DNA from: an uncultured Thermoleophilia bacterium
GTDB lineage: Bacteria; Actinomycetota; Thermoleophilia; UBA2241
DNA: 50,388 nucleotides
Reading direction: 5' to 3'
Assembly (NCBI GenBank): GCA_903862845.1
Contig: CAIOZS010000238.1
Location: 1-50,388, forward strand
Under the pieces are notes generated by a model. The model searched no databases. It saw only the letters and a program-made list of their open reading frames with translations, and had not been told where the DNA came from. Shown here in pieces: positions 274 to 50,303 of this stretch. A program made the translations under genes and the position numbers. How positions within the stretch are numbered: position 1 is the stretch's first letter; each line of letters opens with the position of its first letter.

Positions 274-1677
274 ATGTCGCGAGTGACCACCGTGGTCTGG
301 GGCGAGGCCGACTGCGCGAGAGCGCGTGCGGCGAGTGACCGGATCCTCGAAGAGGCCGGCGTTGAGGTGCCGCACGCCGAGGCCCGGGACCTGCTGGCCG
401 CCGGCGGAGCACGCGTGGAGGGCTCCCGCGTGCACATCCCCGCGGCCGTGGTGAACCGGGCGCTGGCCACGGCTCCTGCAAGCTTCGAGGTGCCGGGCAG
501 AGGCAAAGGCGGCATGGTCCTCGAGGAGGGCCGCACCTACTTCGGCACCGGCCCCGACTGCCTCTACCTGCACGATCCCCTGAGCGGCGAGCGGCGGCGC
601 GCGGTGCTCGACGACGTGAGGGTGAGCGCGGCCCTGTGCGACCAGCTCGACGAGGTCGATTTCATCATGTCCATGGCTCTTCCGGAGGACGCGCCCATTA
701 CGGCGGACGACCTTCTGCAGTTCGCGGCGATGCTCGAGGGCACGACGAAGCCTCTCGTCATGTCGACGAGCCACGGCGGCGACGGTCTCGAGGCCATGTG
801 CGAGATGGCCGGCCTCTGCGGCGAGCGCGGCAGCTTCGCCTGCCTCATCATGTCGTCGCCGCCGCTGCGTTTCGACCCCGCCGCTGCCGACAAGCTCGTC
901 GCGTGCGCTCGCCTCGGCGTGCCCGCGGTGCTCGCGCCGGCGCCGTCGGCCGGGGCGACCGCCCCGGCGTCCACGAGCGCCGCGGTCGTCGTCGGCGACG
1001 CGGAGGTGCTGGCGGGCCTCTGCATCCACCAACTGGCCTGCCCCGGCGCCCCGTTCGTGTACGGCGTGGGCGCCTCGGCCCTCGACATGCGCACGGCTCT
1101 GGACCCGTACGTCGGCCCCGACCACTTTCTCGGCAACCAGGCGGGCTGCGACCTCGCCCGGCATTATGGTCTGCCCAGCTGGTCCTACGCCGGCCCCTCC
1201 GACGCCAAGTCTCTCGACGAGCAGTGGTCGGCCGACGTGGCGATCACGACCGTGCTCGGCGCCGTGTCCCGGGCCACGCTGCTCCACGACCTCGGCTACA
1301 TGGAGTCGGGGATGGCCGGGGCGCCGGAGTCCATCGTCCTCGGCGCCGAGCTGGCGAGCTTCGCGCGCCGGTTCATGAGGGAGCTGCCCCTCGATGAAGA
1401 GGCTCTGCAGCTGGACGAGATCATCGCCGTCGGGCCCGGGGGCAACCACCTGGGCCGGCCCTACACGCGCAGACACCACCGCGACTTCTGGCAGACCGGG
1501 CTCTTCGACCACACCGTCTTCGAGCGCTGGCACGCGGACGGTGCCTCGACGCTGCGAGAGCGCGTGGCACGCAAGACCGCGGAGCTCCTGGCAAGAACGC
1601 CGGATCACGAGATCCCGGCGGCCACGCGCGCCGAGTTCGAGCGGATCATCGACGAGGTGGCAAGGCGTCGGGAGTGA
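274..1677 (+). CDS. MttB-family (trimethylamine methyltransferase-like) corrinoid-dependent methyltransferase, non-pyrrolysine; copy 1
   Basis: 467-aa ORF; family-like signatures (GEADCARARAASDRILEEAGVEV, GGNHLGRPYTRRHHRDFW); clearly paralogous to the ORF at 2991-4406; no in-frame amber codon. Confidence 0.85.
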   Translation: MSRVTTVVWGEADCARARAASDRILEEAGVEVPHAEARDLLAAGGARVEGSRVHIPAAVVNRALATAPASFEVPGRGKGGMVLEEGRTYFGTGPDCLYLHDPLSGERRRAVLDDVRVSAALCDQLDEVDFIMSMALPEDAPITADDLLQFAAMLEGTTKPLVMSTSHGGDGLEAMCEMAGLCGERGSFACLIMSSPPLRFDPAAADKLVACARLGVPAVLAPAPSAGATAPASTSAAVVVGDAEVLAGLCIHQLACPGAPFVYGVGASALDMRTALDPYVGPDHFLGNQAGCDLARHYGLPSWSYAGPSDAKSLDEQWSADVAITTVLGAVSRATLLHDLGYMESGMAGAPESIVLGAELASFARRFMRELPLDEEALQLDEIIAVGPGGNHLGRPYTRRHHRDFWQTGLFDHTVFERWHADGASTLRERVARKTAELLARTPDHEIPAATRAEFERIIDEVARRRE

Positions 1678-1733: not shown

Positions 1734-2819
1734 TCAGCCCGCGAGCTCCTCCACAGGCACGCCGAGCTGGCGGGCGGCGAAGCCGAGCAGGAGCTCGCCG
1801 GCCCGCCCCACGTGCATGTCGGTGTAGCCGACGGCGGAGCGGAAGCTCAGTCCGTCGGCGACCGCGACGAACCAGTGCGCGAGCTCGTCGGGCGGCGCCA
1901 CAGGATGGAACACGCCCGCTCGCTCGCCGTCCTCGATCGCCTCGCGGATGAACGAGAGCCAGTAGTCGGACATGGTGACGCAGGCCGTGAGCAGCTCCGG
2001 GTGGAAGCGGATGCGCACCCAGATCTCGAGCCACAGCAACACCTCGTCGTGCAGGCGCCCCTCGGCCGGCAGGGCCAGCTCGAGGATCCCCCTGAGGCGC
2101 TGCGCGCAGTCCGTCGTCTCCTCACGCAGCTCCTCGATGCGCGCATACGTCTGTTCCATGGCCCACTGCAGGGCCGCGAGCAGGATGTCGTCTTTGGAGC
2201 GATAGTAGTAGCGCACCATCGTGCTGGAGACGCCGGCCTCGCGGGCGACGTCCGAGACACGCGTCGCGGGGAGGCCGTGAGCTGCGAACGCGCGACACGC
2301 GGCCGCCCTGATGGTGTCGCGCGCTCTGGACGAGCGCGTGACCGCCCGCTCCTCGTCGCTGCGTTCGCCGGCGCCGCGCGCCGCGCCCGCGTCCTTCCAC
2401 AGCCGCTCGAGCAGAGCTGCGTCGGGCCCGCCGCCGCTCGTCGCTGCCAGGATGGTGTTCTTGATGCGCAGGGCGGACTTGTAGTTCACTCCCAGCCGGC
2501 GGGCCAGCGCCTCCGCCGTCGGCGGCGCGTCCCCCTCACGGACGAGCAGCGCTCCTGTGAACCAGGTGGCGATGCTCAGGCGCGAGTGCTCCATGAACGT
2601 GCCGGCACAGGGGTAAACGTGGCGGCCGCATGAGTCGCACGCGTAGGCGCGCCGCCCAGTGACGCGGTGGAACCGCCGCACCGTGCGGCACTGCCTGCAG
2701 ACGGCGCTCACGCCGTCCGGCGCGTACAGGTTCGTCCACAGCCACTCCAGGCAGTTCGCCTCGTCGCCGAACGGCTCGAACGCAGCGGCGCCCGCGCGCG
2801 CATCGTCGGTCCTTGGCAT
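1734..2819 (-). CDS. TetR-family transcriptional regulator with N-terminal IS1595-type transposase zinc-ribbon/HTH domain
   Basis: Single uninterrupted ORF: CLEWLWTNLYAPDGVSAVCRQCRTVRRFHRVTGRRAYACDSCGRHVYPCAGTFMEHSRLSIATWF...LARRLGVNYKSALRIKNTI (transposase Zn-ribbon-like) followed by TetR HTH (ARDTIRAAACRAFAAHGLPATRVSDVAREAGVSSTMVRYYYRSKDDIL). Start taken at the ATG preceded by GGAGGA; the ORF extends to 2885. Confidence 0.8.
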   Translation of the reverse strand: MPRTDDARAGAAAFEPFGDEANCLEWLWTNLYAPDGVSAVCRQCRTVRRFHRVTGRRAYACDSCGRHVYPCAGTFMEHSRLSIATWFTGALLVREGDAPPTAEALARRLGVNYKSALRIKNTILAATSGGGPDAALLERLWKDAGAARGAGERSDEERAVTRSSRARDTIRAAACRAFAAHGLPATRVSDVAREAGVSSTMVRYYYRSKDDILLAALQWAMEQTYARIEELREETTDCAQRLRGILELALPAEGRLHDEVLLWLEIWVRIRFHPELLTACVTMSDYWLSFIREAIEDGERAGVFHPVAPPDELAHWFVAVADGLSFRSAVGYTDMHVGRAGELLLGFAARQLGVPVEELAG

Positions 2820-2885
2820 CTCGGTCGTCCTCCGCGATCGGCTACTTGGCTCATTGTACGCAGGCGCGCGTTCACTTGTCGACAC

Positions 2886-2936
2886 TGGATATCATCGATA
2901 CGTGCTTGACATGGATATCCGAACGTAGACTAGACT
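2886..2936 (+). promoter_or_regulatory. Candidate promoter/operator of mttB copy 2: two TGGATATC direct repeats around TTGACA
   Basis: TGGATATC at 2886-2893 and 2912-2919 (26-bp period); TTGACA 2906-2911; TAGACT 2931-2936 (spacer 19); between divergent regulator and mttB. Confidence 0.4.
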
Positions 2937-2990: not shown

Positions 2991-4406
2991 ATGCCCACGG
3001 CACGACTGACACTCTGGGGCGAGGCCGACTGCCGGCGTCTGCACGAAGCCACACTCGACCTGCTCGCCGACGTCGGGGTCGAGGTCAGGTACGAGCCGGC
3101 GCTGGCGCTGTTCCAGGCCGCCGGGTGCGCGGTGGACGGGCGCCGGGTGCGCGTTCCGGCGCGCGCGGTCGAGAAGGCGCTGGCGAGCGCCCCGCGCGAG
3201 TGGCTGCTCAAGCCGCGCGGCGGCGACACCGCGCCGCTCGCGCTGCGCGACGGCGACGTGTACTACGGCACCGGGTCGGACGTGCTGTACATCATCGATC
3301 CGGACTCCGGAGAACGTCGCCGCGTACGTCAGGCCGACATCGAGGGGCAGGCCGCACTTTGCGAGAAGCTGCCCCACATCGACTTCGTCATGAGCATGGG
3401 CCTGCCGGAAGACGCGCCGCGCGAGGTCGACGACCTCGTCCAGGTCGTCGCCATGCTGCGCGGCACGCGCAAGCCGCTGATGATCGCGCCGCGCGACGGC
3501 AGCGTGCTGCGTCGCATCCAGGAGATGGCCGAGCTGTGCGGTGAGAAGGAGAGCGTCTCCATCTACGCCATGCCGTCACCGCCGCTGATGCACGACCCCG
3601 ACGCGCTGACCAAGGTCATCGGCTGCGCCGAGCTGCAGATCCCGCTCATCTACGCGCCGGCGCCCAACATGGGCGCGAGCGCGCCGCGCAGCATCGCCGC
3701 CGTGGTGCTCGTCGGCAACGCCGAAACGCTCAGCGGGCTCGTGTTGCACCAGCACGTGCACGCCGGCGCGCCGTTCGTCTACGGCGCCGGCGGCGACGTG
3801 ATGGACATGCGTTCCATGACCGCCCCCTACACGCCCCCGGACAGCCGGCTCGCCCTCCACGGCTGCTGCGAGATGGCGCGCTTCTACGGCCTGCCGAGCT
3901 TCTCCTACGCGGGCGACGCGGACGCCAAGACGCTCGACCAGCAATGGGGCGCCGAGGCGGCCTTCACCACCGCCTACGGCTCGCTGTCCCGCGCCACGCT
4001 GCTGCACGATGTGGGCTACCTGGAGACCGGCCTGCTGACCTCCTACGAGTCCATCGTGCTCGGCAACGAGCTCGTGGGCTACGCCCGCCAGTTCATGCGC
4101 GACGTCCCCGTGGACGACTACTCCCTGGCACTCGACGAGATCAAAGCCGCGGGGCCGGGCGGCAACCACCTGTCTTCCCGGTACACGCGCAGGCACCACC
4201 GCGAGTTCTGGTCGGCCGACCTCTTCGATCACGGCATGCACGACCGCTGGGCGGCCGAGGGCGGCTTGACGCTGCTCGACCGCGTGCGTCAGCGTGTGGC
4301 GGAGCTGCGCGGCTCGCCGCGCCTCTTCGCGCTCACGCCGGAGCAGGACGCGGCGCTCGAGGGTCTCGTGCGCGAGGCCCTCGACGACCACGCGGCACGC
4401 ATCTAG
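2991..4406 (+). CDS. MttB-family methyltransferase, non-pyrrolysine; copy 2
   Basis: 471-aa protein from ATG 2991 preceded by GGAGAGGAG; strong similarity by eye to copy 1 (LWGEADCRRLHEATLDLLADVGVEV; GGNHLSSRYTRRHHREFWSADLFDH). Confidence 0.85.
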   Translation: MPTARLTLWGEADCRRLHEATLDLLADVGVEVRYEPALALFQAAGCAVDGRRVRVPARAVEKALASAPREWLLKPRGGDTAPLALRDGDVYYGTGSDVLYIIDPDSGERRRVRQADIEGQAALCEKLPHIDFVMSMGLPEDAPREVDDLVQVVAMLRGTRKPLMIAPRDGSVLRRIQEMAELCGEKESVSIYAMPSPPLMHDPDALTKVIGCAELQIPLIYAPAPNMGASAPRSIAAVVLVGNAETLSGLVLHQHVHAGAPFVYGAGGDVMDMRSMTAPYTPPDSRLALHGCCEMARFYGLPSFSYAGDADAKTLDQQWGAEAAFTTAYGSLSRATLLHDVGYLETGLLTSYESIVLGNELVGYARQFMRDVPVDDYSLALDEIKAAGPGGNHLSSRYTRRHHREFWSADLFDHGMHDRWAAEGGLTLLDRVRQRVAELRGSPRLFALTPEQDAALEGLVREALDDHAARI

Positions 4407-4434: not shown

Positions 4435-5607
4435 ATGGACGGCATTGGCGACCTGCTGTTCCGACACCACACCCGCATCGTGTTCGGGCCCGGAGCGCTC
4501 GCCTCGTTGCCGGACGAAGTACGGGCGCTGGGTGCGAGCCGGGCGCTGGTGGTGTGCGATCCCGGCATCACCCGCCTCGGGCTGGCGGACCGCGTCGCCG
4601 AGGCGCTCGCCACCGGCGGCGTGGAGTCGTGGCGCTTCGACGCGCTCTCCGAGAACCCGCGCGACGCCGAGTGCTGCGCCGCGGCCTCGGCGGCATCGCA
4701 CGGTCTCGGCGCCGACGTCATTATCGGGCTCGGCGGCGGCAGCGCCATGGACGCCGCCAAGGCCGCCGCCGCTCTGGTGACAAACGGCGGCACCGTCAAG
4801 GACTGGGAGGACCCGCGGCAGCTCGAGCGGGAGCCGCTGCCTCTGGTCTGCATCCCCACCACAGCCGGCACCGGCAGCGAGGTGACCTTCGTCGCCGTGA
4901 TCACCGACGAGGTCGGCCACTACAAGATGGCGCTGCGGGGCACAGGCCTCGCTCCTCGGGTGGCCATCGTCGACCCGGAGCTCACGCTGAGCCTGCCGCC
5001 GGCGCTCACGGCGGCGACCGGCATGGACGCGCTCGCGCACGCGATCGAGGCGTACACCTGCAAGAAGGCCAACCCGATCACCGACGCGCTGGCCCTGAAG
5101 GCCGTGGCACTGATCGCCGCGAACCTCAGCACGGCCGTGCACCACGGCGCCGACCTCGAGGCCCGCTCGGCCACGCTGCTCGGTTCCACCATGGCCGGCA
5201 TGGCGTTCGGCAACAGTACCGTCGGCGCCGTCCACTGCGTCGGGGAAGCCCTCGGCGGCCTCTACGACACGCCGCACGGCGTCGCCATCGCCGTATTCCT
5301 GCCGGCGGTCTTCCGCTTCAACAGCGCAGCCGACTTGGCCAGGCACGCCGACGTAGCAAAGGCCATGGGCGTGGACGCGGCGGCCGGCGACCCGGCCGCG
5401 CTCGCCGAGCTCGGCGCCGCCGCCATCGAGCGGCTCATGGCCGACGTGGACATCCCGCGCCTCGCGGACCTGCCGGGCGTCGACCCCGCCGACTTCGACG
5501 AGCTGGCCCGCGTGTCCGCGGGCTTCTCCGTCTCGCAGATGAACCCTCGCGAGATCGCCGCAGCCGACTACCTGGCGATCCTTCACGAGACCTACCGAAC
5601 CGACTGA
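4435..5607 (+). CDS. Iron-containing (group III) alcohol dehydrogenase
   Basis: FGPGALASLP, IIGLGGGSAMDAAKA, CIPTTAGTGSEVT, GMDALAHAIEAY motifs; ATG preceded by CGGAGG. Confidence 0.9.
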   Translation: MDGIGDLLFRHHTRIVFGPGALASLPDEVRALGASRALVVCDPGITRLGLADRVAEALATGGVESWRFDALSENPRDAECCAAASAASHGLGADVIIGLGGGSAMDAAKAAAALVTNGGTVKDWEDPRQLEREPLPLVCIPTTAGTGSEVTFVAVITDEVGHYKMALRGTGLAPRVAIVDPELTLSLPPALTAATGMDALAHAIEAYTCKKANPITDALALKAVALIAANLSTAVHHGADLEARSATLLGSTMAGMAFGNSTVGAVHCVGEALGGLYDTPHGVAIAVFLPAVFRFNSAADLARHADVAKAMGVDAAAGDPAALAELGAAAIERLMADVDIPRLADLPGVDPADFDELARVSAGFSVSQMNPREIAAADYLAILHETYRTD

Positions 5608-45795: not shown

Positions 45796-46464
45796 GTGAG
45801 TGCATCTCACGACCGATTCATTCTCGTCACCGGTGGCGCGCGCAGCGGCAAGAGCACCTTTGCCGAGCGGCTCGCGGCGCAGCTCGCCGAGCCGCGCGGT
45901 GGCCGCGTGACCTACCTCGCCACCTCCGAGACCAACGACGTCGAGATGGCGGCGCGGGTCGCGGCGCATCGCGCCGCGCGGCCCACCGCCTGGACCACGG
46001 TGGAGTGCCCGCGCGAGGTGCCGGCGGTGGTGCGCGAGCACGCCGGTGACGGGGTCTTCCTCCTCGACTGCGTCACGTTCTGGGTCACCAACCTGCTGTT
46101 CGCGGGCGGCGCCTTCGGCGGCAGTACGCCGCCCGCCGAGGGCTTCAACTACGACAAGGACCTGCTGCCGGCGGACGAGGAGCGCGCCGCCGCGGCGCGC
46201 GTCTCCGCCGGCATCTCCGATCTTCTCGCCGCGCTCACCGAGACAGGCGCCACTATGATCGCCGTGTCCAACGAGGTCGGGCTTGGGGTCGTCCCCGAGT
46301 ATCCGCTCGCTCGTCTGTACCGCGACCAGCTCGGCTGGGCCAACCAGCGCCTCGCCGCCACGGCCGATCGCGTCTACTTCCTCGTCGCCGGCTTTCCGCT
46401 CGACGTCACGGCTCTCGCCGCTTCCCCGCTCACCCAGTCTTCCGTGAAGGAGTCCGACCAGTGA
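45796..46464 (+). CDS. cobU: Adenosylcobinamide kinase / adenosylcobinamide-phosphate guanylyltransferase
   Basis: ILVTGGARSGKSTFAERLA P-loop, DCVTFWVTNLL, AVSNEVGLGVVPEYPLARLYRDQLGWANQRLA. Confidence 0.95.
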   Translation: MSASHDRFILVTGGARSGKSTFAERLAAQLAEPRGGRVTYLATSETNDVEMAARVAAHRAARPTAWTTVECPREVPAVVREHAGDGVFLLDCVTFWVTNLLFAGGAFGGSTPPAEGFNYDKDLLPADEERAAAARVSAGISDLLAALTETGATMIAVSNEVGLGVVPEYPLARLYRDQLGWANQRLAATADRVYFLVAGFPLDVTALAASPLTQSSVKESDQ

Positions 46465-47549
46465 CCACCGATCTGCTCACCCGCACCATCGCCGCCATCA
46501 TGCCTCTCGATGCCGACGCCATGCGCATCGCCGAGGCGCGGCAGATGGAGCTGACCAAGCCGCCGAAGGCGCTCGGCCGCCTGGAGACGCTGTCCATCCA
46601 GCTTGCCGGCATTCAGGGCAAGGCGCAGCCCGTCATCGAGAGCAAGGCCATCGCCGTGATGGCGGCCGACCACGGCGTGACCGAGGAGGGCGTGAGTGCC
46701 TTCCCGGCCGCGGTCACGCCGGGGATGGTGTTCAACTTCGCGGCGGGGGGCGCCGCCATCAACGTCATCGGCCGCCACGTCGGCGCCCGCGTGCTCGTCA
46801 CCGACGTGGGCGTGAACGCCGACCTCAGCGCCGCCGAAGGCGTGCGCCAGAAGAAGATCCGCATGGGCACCGCCAACATCGCCAAGGGCCCGGCGATGAA
46901 GCGCGAGGAGGCGGTTCGTGCCATCGAGATCGGCATCGCGCTCGTCGAGGAAGAGCTGACGAAGGGTCTTGACATCATCGCCACCGGCGAGATGGGCATC
47001 GGCAACACGACGGCGGCGTCGGCCGTCATCGCGGCGCTCACCGGCGAGCCCGCCGCGACGGTCACGGGGCGCGGCACCGGCATCAGCGCCGACGCTCTTC
47101 CGGCCAAAGTGGCCGTCATCGAGAAGGCGCTGGCCGTGAACCAGCCGGACGCCGCCGATGCCATCGACGTGCTGGCCAAGGTCGGCGGCCTCGAGATCGC
47201 GGCCATGACCGGCGTGTTCCTCGGCGGCGCGGCGCATCGCATCCCCGTGGTCATGGACGGCTTCATCAGCGCCGCTGCGGCGCTCGCCGCGGTGCGCCTC
47301 TGCCACGAGTGCGTGGACTACATCCTGCCGAGCCACGTGAGCATCGAGATCGGGCATCAGGTGGTGCTCGACGAGCTCGGCCTGGTGCCGCTGTTCGACC
47401 TGCAGATGCGGCTCGGCGAGGGTACCGGGGCGGCCCTGTCGATGAGCATCATCGAGGCCGCCGCCCGCATCCTCAGCGAGATGGCGACCTTCGAAAGCGC
47501 CGGCGTCGCCGGCGACCCGAGCGCAGCCGACGCGCGGCTGACGCGGTGA
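46461..47549 (+). CDS. cobT: Nicotinate-nucleotide--dimethylbenzimidazole phosphoribosyltransferase
   Basis: TKPPKALGRLETLSIQLAGIQG, VMAADHGVTEEGVSAFP, GEMGIGNTTAASAV, PSHVSIEIGHQ; GTG start. Confidence 0.95.
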   Translation: MTTDLLTRTIAAIMPLDADAMRIAEARQMELTKPPKALGRLETLSIQLAGIQGKAQPVIESKAIAVMAADHGVTEEGVSAFPAAVTPGMVFNFAAGGAAINVIGRHVGARVLVTDVGVNADLSAAEGVRQKKIRMGTANIAKGPAMKREEAVRAIEIGIALVEEELTKGLDIIATGEMGIGNTTAASAVIAALTGEPAATVTGRGTGISADALPAKVAVIEKALAVNQPDAADAIDVLAKVGGLEIAAMTGVFLGGAAHRIPVVMDGFISAAAALAAVRLCHECVDYILPSHVSIEIGHQVVLDELGLVPLFDLQMRLGEGTGAALSMSIIEAAARILSEMATFESAGVAGDPSAADARLTR

Positions 47550-47574
47550 CGGCGTCCGGGAGGATCGAGGCTCG

Positions 47575-48531
47575 ATGAAGGACGATGGCGACTGGTTCGA
47601 GGTCGATGACGCCGAGCCGGGGCGCGACCGGGTGCTGCTCGGCGCCGAGCGCCTCCCCCGGCAGCCGGCCGAGGACCGTTCGGCAAGAGACGACGTCCAC
47701 CCTACGCCCGGCGAGCCGGCGGCCGGCGGCAGCGCCGCCGCAGGGTCTTTCGTTCGCCGGCTCACCCTCGCGGTCACTTTCCTCACCGGCATTCCTTTAC
47801 CGGTGAAGGGCCATGTGAGCCCGGCCGACCTGTGGCGCAGCATGGGCTGGTACCCGCTGGTCGGGCTCGCCCTCGGCGCGGCGGCTTGGGGCGTGTACGC
47901 GGGCCTGCTCGAGCTTCTCCCGAGCTTCGTCGCCGCGGTGCTCGTGGTGCTGCTGCTCGAGTCCGTCACGCGCGGGCTGCACATGGACGGCCTCATGGAC
48001 ACCGCCGACGGCGTGCTCAGCGGGGCGCCCCGAGAGAGGGCGCTCGAGATCATGAAAGACAGCAATGTCGGCGCGATGGGCGTCGTCGCGGCAGTGCTGA
48101 TCTTGATCCTGAAAGTCGCGGCTCTGGGCGCGCTCACGCGCGCCGCCGCCGCCGCGCCCCTGCTCGCCGGCTGGTGCGCGGCGCGCGCGCTGCCCGCCGT
48201 TGACGTGTACGCGTGGCCGTATGCCCGCGCCGCGGGCACCGGCGAGGCGTTCACGCGCGAGCGCACGATCGGCCCGGTGATGATGGCCGGCTGGCTGCTG
48301 TTGGGCGGCGTGGTCGTGGCCGGACTGGTCGGCCTGGCGGCCGACGCCGCCGGCACCTGGAGCTCCGGCCTCGTGATCGCGGTGGTCGCGATGGGCGTGG
48401 CGCTGCTCGTGCAGGCCGCCGTGGCGAAGCGTCTCGGCGGCCTCACCGGCGACGTCTACGGCATGGGCATCGAACTGGCCGAGGCGGCGGCGCTGGTCGT
48501 CGGGTGCGCGATCGTTAAGCTGGCCGGGTGA
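47575..48531 (+). CDS. cobS: Adenosylcobinamide-GDP ribazoletransferase (cobalamin synthase)
   Basis: RRLTLAVTFLTGIPLPVKG, HMDGLMDTADGVLSGAPRERALEIMKDSNVGAMGV, GGLTGDVYGMGIELAE. Confidence 0.95.
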   Translation: MKDDGDWFEVDDAEPGRDRVLLGAERLPRQPAEDRSARDDVHPTPGEPAAGGSAAAGSFVRRLTLAVTFLTGIPLPVKGHVSPADLWRSMGWYPLVGLALGAAAWGVYAGLLELLPSFVAAVLVVLLLESVTRGLHMDGLMDTADGVLSGAPRERALEIMKDSNVGAMGVVAAVLILILKVAALGALTRAAAAAPLLAGWCAARALPAVDVYAWPYARAAGTGEAFTRERTIGPVMMAGWLLLGGVVVAGLVGLAADAAGTWSSGLVIAVVAMGVALLVQAAVAKRLGGLTGDVYGMGIELAEAAALVVGCAIVKLAG

Positions 48532-48547
48532 CTGCGGCGGTCTCGGC

Positions 48548-49330
48548 ATGAAGCTCTTCCTCGTGCGTCACGGCCAGTCGACGGGCAACGTCGGGGGCAC
48601 GCTGATTGGTCAGAGCGACCACCCTCTCACCGAGCTCGGTGAGGCGCAGGCGCGAGCGGCCGCGGAGCGCCTCGCGCCGCTGGGCCCAATGCCTGTGCAC
48701 TGCAGCGACCTGCCGCGCGCCGTGGCCACCGCCGAGCACATCGTCCGCGCCTTGGCGGAGTCGCCCGGCGTGGGCGCAGAGCTCGCCGGCGTCGCCTGCG
48801 TCCCGCCGCGCGTGATCCCCGACCCGCGCCTGCGCGAGATCGACCTCGGCGACTATGAGGGCCGCTCCTGGGAGGAGTTCGAGGCCGACGAGGAGCTCAC
48901 CGCGGCATTCGTTGTCGACCCCTACGGTACGAGACTGCCCAACGGCGAGTCGCTCGCGCATCTCGAGACGCGGGTGATGAGCGCCGTGGGCGAGATCCTT
49001 GCGGCGCACGGCGTCGGCCCCGACGGTGGTCTCAGCGCCGACGCCGTCGCCTCCGCGGATGCGAGTGCCCTGGCGACCGGCTTCCTCACCGCCGAACCAG
49101 GCGAGAGTGCCTGCATCGTTGCCCACGACGGCCCCATCCGCGCCATCCTCAACCACTACCTCGGCGTGCCGCCGGAGAAGTGGTGGACATTGTCCACCAC
49201 CCACGGCGGCGTCTCGCTGCTCGAGCTCGCCGGCGGCTGGGTCAACGTGCGCTACGTGAACGCGACCAGCCACCTCGCCGGGCTCGGTGACGCGCCGTCC
49301 GAGCCGGCCGACGAGCCGGCCGCCGGCTGA
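48548..49330 (+). CDS. cobC: Histidine phosphatase family protein, alpha-ribazole phosphatase-like
   Basis: FLVRHGQSTGNVGG RHG motif; VHCSDLPRAVATAEHI; LREIDLGDYEGRSWEE; CIVAHDGPIRAIL. Confidence 0.85.
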   Translation: MKLFLVRHGQSTGNVGGTLIGQSDHPLTELGEAQARAAAERLAPLGPMPVHCSDLPRAVATAEHIVRALAESPGVGAELAGVACVPPRVIPDPRLREIDLGDYEGRSWEEFEADEELTAAFVVDPYGTRLPNGESLAHLETRVMSAVGEILAAHGVGPDGGLSADAVASADASALATGFLTAEPGESACIVAHDGPIRAILNHYLGVPPEKWWTLSTTHGGVSLLELAGGWVNVRYVNATSHLAGLGDAPSEPADEPAAG

Positions 49331-49352
49331 CCGCGCGGCGCAGGGTCAGGCC

Positions 49353-50303
49353 GTGTGCTTCCTTCCGCACGACTGGCGGCTGGCGCTCGCGACCGTGCTG
49401 CTCGCCGGCCTCATCGACGTCACGATCGGCGAGCCCCCGAGCGCGCTGCACCCCGTCGTCTGGATGGGCCGGCTGATCGACGCCCTGATGGGGCGCCGCC
49501 CGCGCGGCCGGCCCCGCGCCGAGCTCGCCTACGGCGTGCTGATCGTGGTCGTCACGGCCGGCGCGGCTGCGGCCGCCGGCCTGCTGCTGACGCTGGGCCT
49601 CAGTCACGTGCCCTGGTGGGCGGCGCTGCCGATCGACGCCTGGGTGCTGAAGACAGCGTTCTCGCTGCGCGGCCTGGTGCGCGCCGGCCGCGACGTGCAG
49701 CGCGCCCTCGCCGGCGGCAGCGCCGCGGCTCGCGCCCGTCTCTCGGCGCTCGTGAGCCGCTCCCCCGACCTTGACGCGCGGCTGATCGTCTCAGCCACGG
49801 TGGAGTCGCTGGCTGAGAACCTCACCGACAGCGTCGCCTCACCGCTCCTGTACTATGCCTTGTTCGGGTTGCCCGGCGCCCTCGCTTACCGGGCCATCAA
49901 CACCATGGATGCGATGATCGGCTACCGCGACGAGCGCGAACACGTGGGCAAAGCGGCGGCGCGCAGCGACGACGTGGCCAACTGGGTGCCGACGCGGATC
50001 GCGGCGTTGCTGCTCGTCGCGGTGGCGATCCTGAAGCGGAGGGCCCGGGCCGCCTGGGCGGCGCTGCGCACGCAGCACCGCCCCGAGCACGGGCCCAACA
50101 AGACCCTGGCGATCGCCACCATGGCCGGTGCGCTCGGCGTGCAGCTCGAGAAGCCGGGCGCCTACGTCCTCGGCACCGCCGAGCGGCCGCTCACCGCCGA
50201 CCTGATCGGTGAGGCCGCCTGGTTCGTCTGGGTGGCCGGCGGCGCGACCATCGCCGGCGCCGGCGGCTTGGCGGCGGTCTTCGCCTGGGGAATGCGGGGA
50301 TGA
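49353..50303 (+). CDS. cbiB: Adenosylcobinamide-phosphate synthase (CbiB/CobD)
   Basis: GLIDVTIGEPPSALHPVVWMGRLI, ESLAENLTDSVASPLLYYALFGLPGALAYRAINTMDAMIGYRDERE; GTG 49353 favoured over ORF start 49287, which overlaps cobC. Confidence 0.93.
   Translation: MCFLPHDWRLALATVLLAGLIDVTIGEPPSALHPVVWMGRLIDALMGRRPRGRPRAELAYGVLIVVVTAGAAAAAGLLLTLGLSHVPWWAALPIDAWVLKTAFSLRGLVRAGRDVQRALAGGSAAARARLSALVSRSPDLDARLIVSATVESLAENLTDSVASPLLYYALFGLPGALAYRAINTMDAMIGYRDEREHVGKAAARSDDVANWVPTRIAALLLVAVAILKRRARAAWAALRTQHRPEHGPNKTLAIATMAGALGVQLEKPGAYVLGTAERPLTADLIGEAAWFVWVAGGATIAGAGGLAAVFAWGMRG

Follow-up and report, generated by a model that had tools for sequence, protein, structure and literature searches.

The window analysed here, a stretch of 50,388 nucleotides from an uncultured Thermoleophilia bacterium, carries on its minus strand a regulator gene in which a transposase-type zinc ribbon and helix-turn-helix (HTH) region are joined through a linker to a TetR protein. 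The gene is flanked on both sides by genes of the MttB methyltransferase superfamily, and the features of the locus are as follows.

274..1677, plus strand: MttB-superfamily methyltransferase (non-pyrrolysine), convergent neighbour (PF06253, 1.2e-72; no in-frame stop)
1734..2819, minus strand: fused regulator gene (zinc ribbon, HTH, linker, TetR), 361 residues, with a single ORF, Pfam domains and GGAGG before M1
1764..2105, minus strand: TetR_C_6 (BetI-type) ligand/dimer domain, residues 239-352 (PF13977, 3e-13; closest fold PDB 4NEL/4ICH/4JNN/4KWA)
2172..2312, minus strand: TetR_N HTH, residues 170-216 (PF00440, 1.1e-11)
2334..2375, minus strand: predicted disordered linker, residues 149-162 (pLDDT below 50)
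2433..2573, minus strand: transposase-type HTH region, residues 83-129 (alignment with intact transposases; AlphaFold helices)
2619..2762, minus strand: IS1595-type zinc ribbon, residues 20-67 with C41, C44, C61 and C64 (PF12760; four Cys invariant in 15 aligned homologues)
2843..2912, no strand assigned: candidate operator zone with three CAAG cores 30 bp apart (2845-2848, 2875-2878, 2905-2908), of conserved spacing and overlapping promoter elements
2853..2882, minus strand: promoter-like site TCGACA-18-TACAAT of the regulator gene (10/12 matches; 0.0 expected in shuffles)
2991..4406, plus strand: MttB-superfamily methyltransferase (non-pyrrolysine), divergent neighbour (PF06253, 1.4e-69)
4438..5607, plus strand: iron-containing alcohol dehydrogenase like choline dehydrogenase GbsB (NCBIfam NF053866, 318.9 bits, below the equivalog cut-off of 550)

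Reading frame and domain architecture

The frame of the regulator is uninterrupted from the ATG at 2819 to the stop codon at 1734-1736, and a GGAGG Shine-Dalgarno sequence stands 9 nt upstream of M1, the only start preceded by such a sequence that was found in the gene. ATG, GTG and TTG codons were looked for in frame from residue 111 to residue 201 and none was present, which makes it unlikely that TetR is produced separately with its HTH intact. A first-pass annotation had placed at 1734-2819 one continuous frame with a transposase-like zinc ribbon, an HTH-like segment and a complete TetR domain, but without a DDE catalytic domain. These coordinates are correct, with the minus strand as the coding strand, and the description held throughout: membership of the TetR family follows from the matches to TetR_N (44.7 bits, cut-off 24) and TetR_C_6 (50.4 bits, cut-off 27), and Pfam gave no match to the DDE domain PF12762 in the regulator.

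The zinc ribbon matches Zn_ribbon_IS1595 with 18.9 bits in the whole protein and 20.6 bits when the N-terminal part is searched alone, which is below the gathering score of 25.4 bits. This cut-off is uninformative here, because an intact ISXO2-like transposase of a related genome, which has a full DDE domain (139 bits), also fails it with only 21.2 bits; the regulator thus matches the zinc ribbon profile as well as a genuine transposase does, sub-threshold in both cases. Two CxxC pairs, an HTH following them and a tree position beside transposases (see below) assign the N-terminal domain (N-domain) to the IS1595/ISXO2 DNA-binding regions. It is 41% identical to an intact ISXO2-type transposase across zinc ribbon and HTH, with the HTH-like segment aligning to the transposase stretch between zinc ribbon and DDE domain, and the similarity stops where the DDE domain begins; for the N-domain of a paralogue, identity to one transposase reaches 57%. 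The AlphaFold model of the N-domain is confident, with most of residues 20-148 above 90, and the HTH region is predicted to form helices at residues 83-94, 102-109 and 113-129 with a pLDDT of about 90 or more, followed by the disordered linker and a TetR fold. A PDB sequence search with the N-domain gave nothing meaningful and a fold search with its model gave no close solved relative (best E 0.68); the model thus gives a confident picture of an IS1595 DNA-binding domain that lacks a close solved structure. By sequence and model, the captured module appears as the complete IS1595/ISXO2 DNA-binding part, free of the catalytic domain and tethered to TetR by a predicted flexible linker.

Descent and conservation of the fusion

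At least 14 further full-length fused homologues were found, of which eight are of the Thermoleophilia type, including one paralogue (C252) from the source genome itself, and six belong to Nonomuraea. The homologues from other genomes (L040-L051 and L055) come from the six Nonomuraea genomes and from seven records with Thermoleophilia or Actinomycetota in the title, with L042 cut by a contig end. The pattern scan of genome contigs covered the best 80 loci, and records near the window genome may be missing from it. A divergent fused homologue occurs in a different family, in a 6.4 Mb genome that consists of a single contig. A tblastn search of plasmids gave, among the matches listed, only matches to the TetR half and none to the fused protein. 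Besides C252, the source genome has a third fused gene, C157 (L009:4771-6190), which is frameshifted near the domain junction, adjoins a C-terminal remnant of an MttB gene, and is probably a decaying copy of the regulator/MttB pair.

In the alignment of 15 sequences, the four zinc ribbon cysteines as well as F50, H51 and R52 are invariant in all 15, and the recognition part of the HTH is variable. In close pairs, dN/dS is 0.09-0.37 in the zinc ribbon/HTH region versus 0.08-0.27 in TetR, and the N-domain values are thus similar to, or modestly above, those of the TetR half. Zinc ribbon and HTH are under purifying selection, unlike residues 1-18, which drift.

We compared 17 fused N-domains in a tree with 46 such domains taken from IS1595-type proteins, most of them intact transposases. 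The fused N-domains formed one clade (support 100/98), recovered in each of the 200 bootstrap trees, and the transposases nearest to this clade come from the same class. The idea that a transposase module had been exapted, already put forward in the first-pass annotation, agrees with this single clade, with the end of the homology at the DDE start and with the purifying selection, and we regard it as well supported by sequence comparison that the N-domain is an exapted IS1595/ISXO2 transposase module. The TetR halves fall into one 23-row clade (98/93), together with four plain TetRs and two TetRs that carry an IS630-type transposase HTH in front, in place of the IS1595 module (L056:7506-8648 and L057:7602-8609, both plus strand; NF033545, 46.8 and 58.6 bits). 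The free tree of the fused TetR halves needs three changes, but the AU test does not reject a single clade (p 0.37). The broader TetR group also takes in XRE-TetR proteins, among them PDB 4ICH.

Other proteins also carry an IS1595-type zinc ribbon/HTH. L116, a 526-residue ORF of Rhizobiales bacterium YIM 77505, continues with a hydrophobic segment and a domain that by eye resembles lytic transglycosylases, and is possibly another DDE-less re-use of the module. Three similar proteins of 175-183 residues from Chloroflexota (L059, L063, L070) have a charged tail and no DDE domain, and may represent a stand-alone domesticated module.

Neighbouring genes, predicted ligand and candidate operator

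Both MttB neighbours in the window score above the gathering score of PF06253 (245 and 234.9 bits), and neither contains an amber codon. In L040-L042, too, orthologues of the divergent gene, with 74-76% identity, are transcribed divergently from the orthologous regulator, and an MttB gene directly adjoins the regulator, mostly divergently, in the window and in L040, L041, L042, L043, L045 and L049. A corrinoid protein gene lies on the other side of the regulator in L040, and two flank the paralogue C252. The source genome, of 4.4 Mb, contains about 35 genes of the MttB superfamily, so that some regulator/MttB adjacency may have arisen by chance, but the conservation of orthologous pairs stands against this. 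The divergent synteny suggests that the regulator controls a corrinoid methyltransferase locus, with the MttB gene at 2991..4406 as its likely main target. The Nonomuraea homologues and L055 lack an MttB neighbour, and the target pathway is therefore not fixed; in Nonomuraea the neighbours are PrpD-like, ABC transporter and FAD oxidoreductase genes. L045 has an MttB gene as well as a PrpD homologue that shares 68% identity with the PrpD encoded divergently from the Nonomuraea regulators, and by this gene content is a link between the MttB-type and Nonomuraea groups.

Several MttB genes elsewhere in the source genome have one in-frame TAG (for example C112:36523-37911, C88:1177-2646 and C267:4-1389), so that this Thermoleophilia bacterium may also have pyrrolysine-type MttB. 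The genes at 45796-50303 of the window, which share a contig with the corrinoid methyltransferases, resemble, by eye, genes of cobinamide/cobalamin biosynthesis.

Non-pyrrolysine MttB members with known function demethylate quaternary amines (PMC12155760). The closest solved TetR structures are those of one Saccharomonospora viridis protein, with 31-32% identity and a TM score by target of 0.84-0.86, which was crystallized with choline (4KWA), N,N-dimethylmethanamine, that is, trimethylamine (4NEL), and benzamidine (4JNN). By analogy with 4KWA and 4NEL, the ligand of the regulator would be choline, trimethylamine or a related quaternary amine, and in some actinobacteria of soils and sediments the regulator probably governs how choline- or trimethylamine-like compounds are broken down.

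Upstream of the regulator, the three CAAG cores recur in four orthologues with spacings of 30 and 29-30 bp. When one sequence was shuffled, some 4-mer formed such a triple in about 7% of cases, and we therefore treat these cores, which the promoter hexamers overlap, as a lead to a candidate operator. The alignment of the corresponding region of the six Nonomuraea genomes shows CAAGG-N9-CCTTG, in one case with CAAGA, again overlapping promoter elements, and no single perfect palindromic operator was found upstream of the regulator gene in the window.

Proposed mechanism, alternatives and known systems

Building on the observed architecture, homology, selection and synteny, we propose, with a probability of about 0.72, that the regulator is an amine-responsive protein that uses a captured transposase DNA-binding module and represses the divergent mttB gene and itself until an amine binds; for DNA binding by the N-domain, the ligand, the operator and the sign of regulation, this is what we infer. 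Each chain of this ligand-responsive transcription regulator would carry two DNA-binding modules. The C-terminal BetI-like TetR half is expected to dimerize and to bind a small amine. With two TetR HTHs and two transposase-type modules, the resulting dimer could read an extended operator of higher selectivity between the regulator and MttB genes. The ligand-free dimer would silence the promoter of the divergent mttB gene as well as its own, a repressor role that is the default for TetR proteins and is assumed here by analogy, and amine binding would release the dimer, so that demethylation via the corrinoid pathway is switched on.

A different, rather unlikely role of the N-domain would be that of a protein-protein module, which contacts RNA polymerase or another partner or supports oligomerization off the DNA, with TetR alone reading the operator. 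Zinc ribbons commonly make protein contacts, and the failure of the fold search to return a close solved DNA-binding homologue and the differences among homologues in the HTH recognition part would fit this role. However, the HTH has been kept along with the zinc ribbon, both under purifying selection, and the parent module occupies the DNA-binding position of DDE transposases. That same parentage, from a transposase expected to bind the ends of its elements, could also mean that the fused protein mainly represses, or immunizes against, IS1595-type elements by occupying these ends, under ligand control by TetR and with an incidental MttB linkage. We consider this very improbable, as the conserved linkage is to catabolic genes and not to IS elements, and a simple search for terminal inverted repeats in 11 related IS1595-type elements, with which the operator could have been compared, returned nothing convincing.

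The least credible explanation is an artefact, be it a chimeric assembly, a frameshift, or an untranslated N-terminus with an internal TetR start. The source assembly is indeed fragmented into 352 contigs, and C157 shows that a true frameshift occurs in a paralogue. Yet the same architecture recurs in independent assemblies, in isolates and in one single-contig genome, the frame is under purifying selection, and only M1 has a Shine-Dalgarno sequence, with the startless residues 111-201 speaking against separate synthesis of TetR. The frameshift, split and internal-start explanations that the first-pass annotation had considered are thus very improbable, and the fused ORF is confirmed as real.

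In the literature searched, we found no report of a transposase-derived N-terminal domain on a TetR protein, which is weak evidence of absence, and no regulator of MttB-type demethylation. At the level of sequence, the amine-responsive regulator proposed here is an example of how a bacterial transcription factor can be built from a transposase DNA-binding module and a small-molecule sensor and kept by selection in two classes. It makes the origin of new operator specificity in bacteria testable, and points to choline, trimethylamine and betaines as candidate ligands of a protein that regulates MttB-type demethylation.

An extra N-terminal DNA-binding domain on a TetR is already known, as the S. 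viridis protein (4ICH/4KWA/4NEL/4JNN) carries one like the regulator described here; in S. viridis it matches an XRE-like HTH of actinobacterial homologues, whereas here it is a transposase zinc ribbon. Three further loci from actinobacterial genomes (L180-L182) encode an XRE-type HTH fused to TetR, with the architecture of 4ICH. The choline-sensing repressor BetI is the best NCBIfam match of the regulator (2e-16) and has TetR_C_6 in common with it, but BetI lacks an N-terminal module, and the 60.3 bits of the regulator are far under the BetI equivalog cut-off of 201.3. IS1595/ISXO2-family transposases share the zinc ribbon and HTH and differ by their DDE catalytic domain. Co-opted mobile-element regulators of prokaryotes include Ner/SfsB and antitoxins (PMC8987985, a review of mobile-element recruitment that names phage regulators and antitoxins) and the TnpB-derived regulator TldR (PMC13418256). 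In these cases, too, a mobile-element DNA-binding protein has become a regulator, but whole proteins are re-used, whereas here a one-component sensor has gained the DNA-binding part of a transposase by fusion. Another parallel is offered by host-transposase fusion genes, such as those in which F-box genes captured a Tc1/Mariner HTH (PMC12062965), as they also join a transposase HTH to a host domain, although they are eukaryotic and combine other transposase and host domains. In our judgement, the chances are about even that the amine-sensing TetR lineage of Actinomycetota recruited mobile-element DNA-binding domains more than once, with the IS1595 zinc ribbon and HTH here and the IS630-type HTH in its nearest relatives L056 and L057, which would make transposase capture a recurring route to new operator specificity for bacterial one-component regulators, and a bacterial counterpart of the host-transposase fusion genes.
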